From contig NZ_CP095757.1 in the NCBI RefSeq assembly GCF_023093535.1, positions 3,224,001 through 3,288,000 on the forward strand: a stretch of 64,000 nt of DNA, given 5' to 3'. The notes beneath the pieces were generated by a model. That model made no database searches, was not told the origin of the DNA, and was given only the letters and a program-made list of their open reading frames with translations. This DNA is from Halovivax limisalsi. GTDB taxonomy: Archaea; Halobacteriota; Halobacteria; Halobacteriales; Natrialbaceae. The translations under genes were made by a program, and so were the position numbers. Of the stretch, positions 37,214 through 39,972 are shown piece by piece (the stretch's first letter is position 1; each line of letters opens with the position of its first letter).

Positions 37214-37747
37214 ATGACGGATCAGGACCTCATCGACGCGCTCCGAGACGCGGAGGCCGTCGAGTTCGGCGAATTCGAGCTGTCCCACGGCGGGACGAGC
37301 GAGTACTACGTCGACAAGTACCGCTTCGAGACGGATCCGGCGTGTCTGTCTGCGATCGCGAACGCCTTCGCGGATCGGCTGGACGCGGACGACACACTCG
37401 GCGGCGTCGCGCTCGGCGGCGTCCCGCTGGCGGCGGCGACGAGCGTCGCCGCGGACGTCCCCTACGTCATCGCGCGCAAGCAGCGCAAGGAGTACGGGAC
37501 GGGGAACCTGATCGAGGGCCGCCTGGAGGAAGGCGAGTCGGTCGTCGTGGTCGAGGACATCGTGACGACGGGAACCAGCCTGGTCGAGGCCGTCGAGGCG
37601 CTCCGCGAAGCGGGCGCGACGGTCGAGCGCGCGCTCGTCGTCGTCGACCGCGAGGAGGGCGGCCGAGAGGCGGTCGAGGAGGCCGGCGTCGAAATGGAGG
37701 CCCTCGTCACGGCCAGCGAGTTACTCGCCGACGCCGACCGCCAGTAG
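37214..37747 (+). CDS. pyrE: orotate phosphoribosyltransferase
   Basis: Joins orotate and PRPP to form OMP in de novo pyrimidine synthesis. It is 177 residues: [20 protein letters not shown] near 22, [19 protein letters not shown], the conserved [15 protein letters not shown] segment with catalytic Lys/Arg, and the PRPP loop [20 protein letters not shown]. The length matches archaeal PyrE, which is widely used as a genetic marker in haloarchaea. carB of the same pathway is 26 kb away. Confidence 0.96.
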
Positions 37748-37851
37748 GTGTCACAGCAGTTCTCCCGCGGGACGTCCGACGGCCTCGCCGACGGTCCGAA
37801 CACCGATCGGATCGCGCGTCGGTCGCCCGGCCTGCGGACGGCACCAAAATG

Positions 37852-37859
37852 TTTTTAAG
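37852..37859 (+). promoter_or_regulatory. TATA-like box for the thrS transcript
   Basis: TTTTTAAG preceded by a purine-rich BRE-like CCAAAATG. Transcription is expected to begin near 37880, just before a short open frame. Confidence 0.6.
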
Positions 37860-37884
37860 TCGGTCGGAATTACGCGTAGTCACG

Positions 37885-37926
37885 ATGGTAGGTGTCCGCT
37901 TTACAGGGCCGTTCGCCCGCTTCTAA
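37885..37926 (+). CDS. 13-residue leader peptide frame upstream of thrS
   Basis: ATG 37885 opens a 13-codon frame, MVGVRFTGPFARF, ending at TAA 37924-37926. It lies about 29 bases after a strong TATA-like box, exactly where a leaderless frame would begin. It contains one Thr codon (ACA) and other codons rare in this GC-rich genome (GTA, GGG). Bases 37887-37894 (GGTAGGTG), starting in the ATG itself, can pair perfectly with 37929-37936 (CACCTACC) just after the stop. The frame may therefore control thrS by coupling translation to RNA folding; this is inference. Confidence 0.45.
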   Translation: MVGVRFTGPFARF

Positions 37927-37936
37927 CTCACCTACC
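37887..37936 (+). promoter_or_regulatory. thrS leader hairpin
   Basis: A perfect 8-bp inverted repeat, GGTAGGTG...CACCTACC, encloses the whole leader frame, with a 34-base loop. Forming it would hide the leader start codon; a translating ribosome would open it. Confidence 0.5.
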
Positions 37937-38025
37937 GTCCGCTGTGTCGCAATCCGCGTCGCAGTGGGCGGTCCGCGCGGACGCCGATCCGGGCTTCTCA
38001 CCGAAGTACCACACCGATACGTCCC

Positions 38026-39972
38026 ATGTCAGCATCAGATTCACAGCCACAGATAGCGGTCGTACTGCCAGACGGATCAGAGCTCTCGGTCGACCCCGGC
38101 GCGACCGTCGAGGACTGCGCCTACGAGATCGGTCCCGGCCTCGGGCGCGACACCGTCGCCGGCAAACTCGACGGCGAGCTCGTCGCCAAGGAGGAGCCGG
38201 TCTACGACGGAGCGGCCCTCGAGATCGTCACCGAGGGGTCCGACGAGTACCTCCGGGTCATGCGCCACTCCGCCGCCCACGCGCTGGCCCAGGCCGTCGA
38301 GCGCCGCTTCGGCGAGGACGTCCAGCTCGCCATCGGTCCGCCGACCGACGACGGCTTCTACTACGACTTCGACGAGCTCGACGTCGACGAGGACGACCTC
38401 CCCGAACTCGAGGCCGAGATCGAGAAGATCGTCGACGCAGACTACGACATCGAACGCGAGGAGGTCTCGATCGCGGCGGCCGAGGAGCGCCTGGCCGACG
38501 AGCCCTACAAGCTCGAACTCCTCGAGGAACTGGCCGACGAGGGCGAGACGGTCACCTTCTACCGCCAGGGCGAGTGGGAGGACCTCTGTGCCGGCCCGCA
38601 CGTCGACTCGACGGGCGAGATCGGCGCCGTGAAACTCCTCGAGATCGCCGGCGCCTACTGGCGCGGCGACGAGGACAACCCGATGCAGACCCGCATCTAC
38701 GGTACCGCCTTCGAGAGCGAGAGCGACCTCGAGGACTTCCTGGAACGCCGCGAGGAGGCCAAAGAGCGCGACCACCGCAAGATCGGCCGCGAGATGGACC
38801 TCTTCTCGATCCAGGACGTCACGGGTCCCGGCCTCCCGCTGTATCACCCGCCGGGCAAGCGCATCCTGCGCGAACTCTCGGGCTTCGTCGAGGAACTCAA
38901 CGAGGACGCGGGCTACGAGTACGTCGAGACGCCCCACCTCTTCAAGACCGACCTCTGGAAGCAGTCGGGCCACTACGACAACTACCGGGAGGACATGTTC
39001 GTCTTCGAACTCGGCGACGACGAGTTCGGTCTGAAGCCGATGAACTGTCCGGGTCACGCCTCGATCTTCGAGGACCACTCCTGGAGTTACCGCGACCTGC
39101 CCGTCCGGTACGCCGAGAACGGCAAGGTCTACCGCAAGGAACAGCGGGGCGAACTCTCCGGGCTCTCGCGCGTCTGGGCGTTCACGATCGACGACGGCCA
39201 CCTCTTCGTCCGCCCGGACCAGATCGAAGCCGAGGTCGAGGCGATCATGGACGCCATCGACGAGGTGCTCTCGACGTTCGATCTCGAGTACGAGGTGGCG
39301 CTGGCCACGCGCCCCGAGAAGTCCGTCGGCAGCGACGAGATCTGGGAGCGCGCCGAGTCCCAGCTCGAGTCCGTCCTCGAACGTCGGAAGATGGACTACG
39401 ACCTGGAGGCCGGCGACGGCGCCTTCTACGGCCCGAAAATCGACTTCGCCTTCGAGGACGCGATCGGACGCAGCTGGGACGGCCCGACCGTCCAGCTGGA
39501 CTTCAACATGCCCGAGCGCTTCGACCTGTCCTACGTCGGCGAGGACAACGAGGAACACCGGCCCGTCATGATCCACCGCGCGCTCTACGGCAGCTACGAG
39601 CGCTTCTTCATGATGCTCATCGAGCACTACGAAGGCAACTTCCCGTTCTGGCTCGCGCCCGAACAGGTGCGCGTGCTCCCCATCTCAGACGACAATCTGG
39701 GCTACGCCCACCGGGTCGCCAACGAGTTCGAGGAGTTCCGCGTCGAGGTCGACCACTCCGACGCCACGCTCGGCCGAAAGATCCGCGCCGCCCACGACGA
39801 CCGCGTCCCCTACCAGATCATCGTCGGCGACGACGAGGCGGCCGAGGGGACGATCTCGGTCCGGGATCGTTTCGAGGACCAGGAGGAGGACGTCGCGATC
39901 GAGGACTTCCGCTCACATCTCGTAGGGGAGCGCGACGAGAAACGGACGGAGCCGGACTTCTTGCAGGACTGA
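38026..39972 (+). CDS. thrS: threonine--tRNA ligase
   Basis: Charges tRNA-Thr. At 648 residues it has the bacterial-type domain order: N-terminal TGS ([21 protein letters not shown]), the editing/SAD domain with [15 protein letters not shown] and [17 protein letters not shown], the class II catalytic core ([11 protein letters not shown] with zinc ligand C341; [18 protein letters not shown]) and the anticodon-binding domain ([18 protein letters not shown]). Halobacteria use this bacterial-type enzyme. The start is ATG 38026, about 100 bases after the leader frame. Confidence 0.96.

Follow-up and report, generated by a model that had tools for sequence, protein, structure and literature searches.

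The window analysed here, a stretch of 64,000 nucleotides from the 3.9 Mb haloarchaeal chromosome of Halovivax limisalsi, carries thrS at positions 38026-39972. This 648-aa ORF encodes a bacterial-type threonyl-tRNA synthetase (ThrRS) that is 76-93% identical to its relatives in the family Natrialbaceae. It is preceded by a leader of 141 nt, and all features of the window described below lie on the plus strand. A T-rich TATA box, TTTTTAAG (37852-37859), stands at leaderless distance from an ATG at 37885 (in the context ACG ATG), and the distance is equal in relatives. This ATG opens an upstream open reading frame (uORF) of 13 codons, MVGVRFTGPFARF followed by the stop codon (37885-37926), which would encode a leader peptide. 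From the position of the TATA box, transcription is expected to start at 37885 or within about 3 nt of it. By the figure given in PMC4983044, 72% of the protein-coding transcripts of Haloferax volcanii are leaderless, so that translation from a leaderless ATG would be the usual route in a haloarchaeon. The frame is enclosed by the halves of a perfect inverted repeat, GGTAGGTG (37887-37894) and CACCTACC (37929-37936), the second of which lies two bases 3′ of the TAA, and 89 bases separate the hairpin end at 37936 from the thrS ATG at 38026. A sequence-only reading of the window had placed the box, the frame and the stem halves correctly to the letter, and its estimate of about 90 bases before thrS agrees with the count.

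Conservation of the upstream frame

The upstream regions of 116 loci were compared. Most of them came from the Natrialbaceae, the family of the window, in which loci were collected by their thrS and not by the uORF start pattern; five, from one genus of another family, were found by the exact pattern. The uORF was present in all 116 regions, of which 114 fit the start pattern and two (G021 and G076) carry a rebuilt form. Nearly all sampled Natrialbaceae genomes have the element before thrS, normally in one copy per genome. None of the 114 loci departs from ATG GTA GGT GTC at codons 1-4 or from TTT ACA at codons 6-7, even at synonymous sites, and a reversed control pattern gave no match in 391 genomes. 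The occurrence of the uORF start and TTTACA before thrS is far above chance. The few exact-pattern matches away from thrS had other spacers and were judged to be chance.

Start and frame are kept in the 114 loci. Where the frame has 13 codons (89 loci), its final two sense codons differ at the third position 29 and 17 times, and at the first or the second position 0 or 1 time. One Natrialbaceae locus has TGA in place of the TAA stop, with the synonymous CGA TTT just before it. A 3-nt insertion in the uORF preserves the frame, and the distance from the ATG to TTTACA is 15, 18, 24 or 66 nt among lineages, always a multiple of 3. G021 and G076 have lost the original start; a new ATG close to a TATA box takes its place, and from it the rebuilt uORFs (30-31 codons) run in frame into RFTRAxARF. 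In view of the third-position bias, the stop swap, the whole-codon indels and the rebuilt uORFs, the frame is hard to explain unless it is translated. The coding signature and the keeping of the frame indicate that the thrS leader, like an attenuator, contains a short translated ORF. An alignment of relatives, which the sequence-only reading had proposed as a check, thus finds the frame conserved at the codon level, and between families it also finds the compensatory stem changes described below.

Two covariance models, home-made and with E-values that are rough, matched 127 and 138 of the 391 genomes from the class Halobacteria; this sample was drawn and is incomplete, and the genomes are related, so that the counts are not independent events. 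Matches of the 138-genome model, weak ones included, fall in 46 of the 86 sampled genera. The strong matches that were read all stand before thrS save one, and the weakest are partly chance. The weak matches L255-L259, L261 and L263 are not upstream of thrS and were rejected as thrS elements. Representatives of the non-matching genera had a leaderless thrS without uORF in 30 of 30 cases, and the leader device is therefore dispensable in the class.

Helices sharing the start arm

The leader frame and its flank fold into a 54-nt hairpin of −21.9 kcal/mol (z −3.8), and none of 200 shuffles was as stable. Its outer stem, pairing A, joins the uORF start arm (arm 1, GGTAGGTGT, 37887-37895) with the post-stop arm 2 (CACCTACC, 37929-37936) and extends to 10 bp. 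Since the start arm is invariant within the Natrialbaceae, covariation of pairing A can be judged only between families, where U-A is replaced by C-G, and U-A by G-C or A-U. Examples from other families are GGCAGGUGUC/GACACCUGYC, GGUGACU/AGUCACC and GUCGGUGAUC/GAUCACCGAC. In one genome of family f7, an inserted palindrome of about 90 nt lies between the uORF and its post-stop arm (L232:225-380).

A second partner of the start arm was found further downstream. In pairing B, arm 1 is used as GGTGTCCGC (37891-37899, uORF codons 3-5), and GGUGUCCGC pairs with arm 4, GCGGACGCC (37977-37985). Arm 4 covaries with uORF codon 5 in the Natrialbaceae: CGC occurs with GCGGAC, CGT with ACGGAC (8 loci) and TGC with GCAGAC (8 loci), a covariation matched by none of 500 shuffles. 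Two further helices likewise covary in this family. One is helix 2 (37935-37971), formed by CCGTCCGCTG (37935-37944) and CAGTGGGCGG (37962-37971), in which 6 of 10 pairs are changed on both sides. The other is an inner hairpin, GGGC-CGTTC-GCCC (37906-37918), directly 3′ of the Thr codon, whose stem is kept with U-A and U-G replacements and whose loop is variable.

Pairings A and B are mutually exclusive because both use arm 1 (overlap 37891-37895). As in attenuators, the leader has predicted exclusive helices that share an arm which a ribosome would cover, A and B not occurring together in every lineage. Genus g20 has lost pairing A and kept pairing B and the uORF; genera g24 and g3 have lost pairing B and kept pairing A. 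Neither helix is therefore indispensable, and the uORF frame and the Thr codon persist where one or the other is lost. The hairpin noticed in the sequence-only reading is borne out by its stability and its changes between families, and the stem of start arm and post-stop arm stands as described there; the second, exclusive partner at 37977-37985 had been missed. That reading saw the geometry as attenuation-like, a leaderless translated leader with its start inside a fold that a ribosome translating it has to open, and the comparison points the same way because this fold is conserved and covarying.

The perfect inverted repeat just 3′ of the TATA box could also be taken for a DNA operator in which GGTAGGTG/CACCTACC binds a dimeric transcription factor. 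One arm is, however, invariant and the other loose, their spacing is variable, the compensatory pairs are those of RNA and include G-U, and there is a coding signature, all of which makes such an operator scarcely credible. It is also very improbable that the peptide itself is the product, as a functional microprotein or as a sequence-dependent arrest peptide. The N-terminal MVGVxFT is constant in the Natrialbaceae, as such a product would have it, but residue 5 (R, Y, C or H) follows the RNA helix, neither residues 8-13 nor the length is constant, and other families read MAGD.FT, MLGD.FT or MYVGDRFT. The conserved codons are moreover fixed at synonymous sites too, which points to RNA or codon identity. 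An action of the peptide through its sequence, which had been suggested from the window, is at odds with the changes at residue 5 and at residues 8-13, which accompany those of the RNA helices.

The threonine codon and cognate codons before other synthetase genes

The Phe-Thr codons TTT ACA (37900-37905), identical in the 114 loci, are also found in other families, and ACA is the presumed sensor codon. It is the only Thr codon of the thrS uORF and, besides the start and GGT, its most conserved codon. Every uORF of the element contains it, including that of L253, in which TTT is changed to GTG. In a count over eight genes of this genome, ACA makes up 1.8% of the Thr codons and TTT 7% of the Phe codons, yet both are fixed in the uORF. 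A tRNA-Thr(UGU) is present. Direct pairing with this tRNA was rejected as an explanation, since UUACA complements its anticodon loop but any ACA codon would do so. The candidate cognate codon of the leader is this one invariant ACA, and runs of cognate codons were found only in pheS. The lone Thr codon had earlier been read as an argument against amino-acid sensing, which is countered by the near-maximal conservation of ACA and by the cognate uORFs at pheS and metS. Comparison among relatives supports translation of the frame, constancy of its Thr codon and, for the RNA, helices of which A and B exclude each other.

Some haloarchaea possess an archaeal-type ThrRS (PF08915 matches). In G330 the element is located upstream of such an archaeal-type ThrRS, the N-terminal domain of which is unrelated, and the element therefore tracks ThrRS function and not one gene family. 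Three genomes of genus g58 (L287, L293 and L294) have an archaeal-type ThrRS with a distinct leaderless uORF, MSVLF(G/R)TTRGLASF before the stop, which contains two ACA codons in tandem and a GTGTTGT/ACAACAC hairpin. Most of the other archaeal-type ThrRS genes examined were leaderless without uORF. The Natrialbaceae genomes G038 and G039 (L286 and L280) have a leaderless archaeal-type ThrRS and no match to bacterial-type thrS.

A TATA-proximal leaderless uORF that ends in GFGFFFAR, or a close variant, before its stop precedes pheS in 25 of 29 genomes from six families. It is 24-29 codons long, with one of 41 (L406-L435), and in L430 it starts at about 596536 on the minus strand of G000:C1 and ends in the Phe run. 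The Phe content of the pheS uORFs is 12.9%, versus 2.9% in the genome sample. Many pheS loci have a GC-rich hairpin directly after the Phe run and spanning the stop, in the position of a counterpart to the inner hairpin after the thrS Thr codon. For H. volcanii, Table 2 of PMC4983044 lists uORFs mapped by dRNA-seq before pheS (26 aa) and before a tryptophan--tRNA ligase (23 aa). In part of the Natrialbaceae, metS also has a conserved leaderless uORF with a late Met codon (...SMRMRR, ...SMRT or ...LMRM before the stop; upstream regions L335-L364, G000:C1 ~1888696, minus strand). It is followed 3′ by a conserved CCGGTCATACGG with CAT in the loop and then by a second promoter-like box, CCGGCGGGTTTTACGCCC, proximal to metS. 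Only 28 of 921 gene-like ORFs in 1.26 Mb of scanned genome were preceded by such uORFs, and 3 of these are aminoacyl-tRNA synthetase (aaRS) genes (Fisher p ~0.0008, with seven aaRS genes in the scanned part, an approximate count).

Bacterial-type ThrRS is the class of enzyme that autoregulates in E. coli, and an RNA operator to which ThrRS or some other protein binds, with an overlapping uORF that is not the sensor, would suit the several stable helices and the invariant, non-coding-like GGTG and TTTACA, conserved down to their synonymous sites. Such an operator is nevertheless quite unlikely, given the clear coding signature and the frame kept in the rebuilt uORFs, and given that the element also stands upstream of the unrelated archaeal-type ThrRS. 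Among the covarying helices, judged by eye only, no likeness to an anticodon arm was recognised, and pheS and metS share cognate-codon uORFs and not a common structure.

A putative leader-peptide device and known systems

We propose, as a reasonably probable reading, that the thrS leader works as a leader-peptide device in which the ribosome is the sensor and which adjusts ThrRS synthesis to charged tRNA-Thr. Transcription would start at or beside the uORF ATG, and a ribosome would enter the leaderless uORF, open the start-arm helix and reach the rare ACA with the GC-rich hairpin just ahead. By geometry, a ribosome with ACA in its A site should cover about nt 1-33, arm 1 included, and meet the inner hairpin at its front. 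When little tRNA-Thr is charged, it would pause on this codon and bury arm 1, so that neither pairing A nor pairing B could form; if Thr-tRNA is plentiful, it would reach the stop, and the freed arm 1 would re-pair. The resulting fold would set thrS output. Ribosome stalling, the response to threonine and the direction of this response are what we infer from the layout.

Candidate routes to the output are aCPSF1/FttA transcript termination or coupling, reinitiation or access to the start, and mRNA stability. There is no U-tract between the uORF and thrS, where the longest T run is 2, which leaves the leader without a classical archaeal terminator. When arm 1 was masked in the model, the accessibility of the thrS start stayed practically unchanged (0.60 to 0.57). 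An SD-like role of GGTAGGTG with sequestration of the thrS start was rejected, as modelling gave no change in the Natrialbaceae. Neither a terminator nor an RBS-masking output helix was found in the thrS leader, which for this reason is described as working like an attenuator and is not filed as a member of that class. Family f7 (L233, L240 and others), unlike the Natrialbaceae, has an SD-like GGAGGTG of thrS in a hairpin that follows closely on the uORF helix; masking the start arm in the model does not free this SD-like element. Natrialbaceae thrS has no SD, which, together with the missing output switch in the models, might suggest that the uORF tunes initiation only. Leaderless 5′ entry would then compete with or feed thrS reinitiation without any sensing, the start arm hiding the 5′ AUG and the hairpin setting the rate. 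This is not a likely explanation, as it fails to account for the fixed rare Thr codon, for the Phe codons upstream of pheS and for the Met codons upstream of metS.

For the leader-peptide device, the parallels invite a wider claim, to which we give an even chance: that Halobacteria control thrS, pheS, metS and perhaps trpS by leaderless cognate-codon leader peptides, class-wide and with terminator-free output. Textbooks treat leader-peptide attenuation as a bacterial mechanism, and the present data suggest that archaea too sense amino-acid supply via leader peptides. No description of archaeal aaRS leader-peptide attenuation was found in the literature searched, which covered few subscription papers, and the novelty is provisional. 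The conserved and covarying thrS leader and the pheS and metS parallels make archaeal leader-peptide sensing directly testable. They also raise the questions of how the position of a ribosome may control a gene without helix-driven transcription termination, and of what leaderless initiation contributes.

T-box leaders likewise place aaRS genes under amino-acid control through a cognate (specifier) codon in the leader. Unlike there, the codon of the thrS leader sits in a translated frame, and a cmscan of positions 37700-38100 against Rfam, T-box model included, found nothing at E-values up to 5. The translational operator of E. coli thrS is likewise a structured thrS leader, which resembles tRNA-Thr, is bound by ThrRS and lacks a uORF, whereas the haloarchaeal element has a uORF with a Thr codon and also precedes a non-homologous ThrRS. 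In mycobacteria, leaderless uORFs with cysteine codons control downstream genes. They share with the thrS leader the leaderless uORF, the cognate codons and the control of a downstream gene, and differ in being bacterial and in their codons, RNA and gene set; for their uORF and leaderless context see PMC4633059. The uORFs in long 5′-UTRs of H. volcanii are, in the same way, small frames upstream of pheS and of a tryptophan--tRNA ligase (Table 2 of PMC4983044), and the part of that study concerned with them treats them as small proteins, without cognate codons, structure, conservation or the thrS case. Bacterial attenuators (trp, his and E. coli pheST/pheM) differ from the thrS leader, which is archaeal, has a leaderless uORF start inside a helix and a single Thr codon, and shows no detected intrinsic terminator or evident RBS switch. 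They likewise have a short translated ORF with a cognate codon before the gene, and alternative helices with one arm in common, which a ribosome on this codon would cover. In E. coli pheST the target is an aaRS, as for the thrS leader, and haloarchaeal pheS even has the Phe run.
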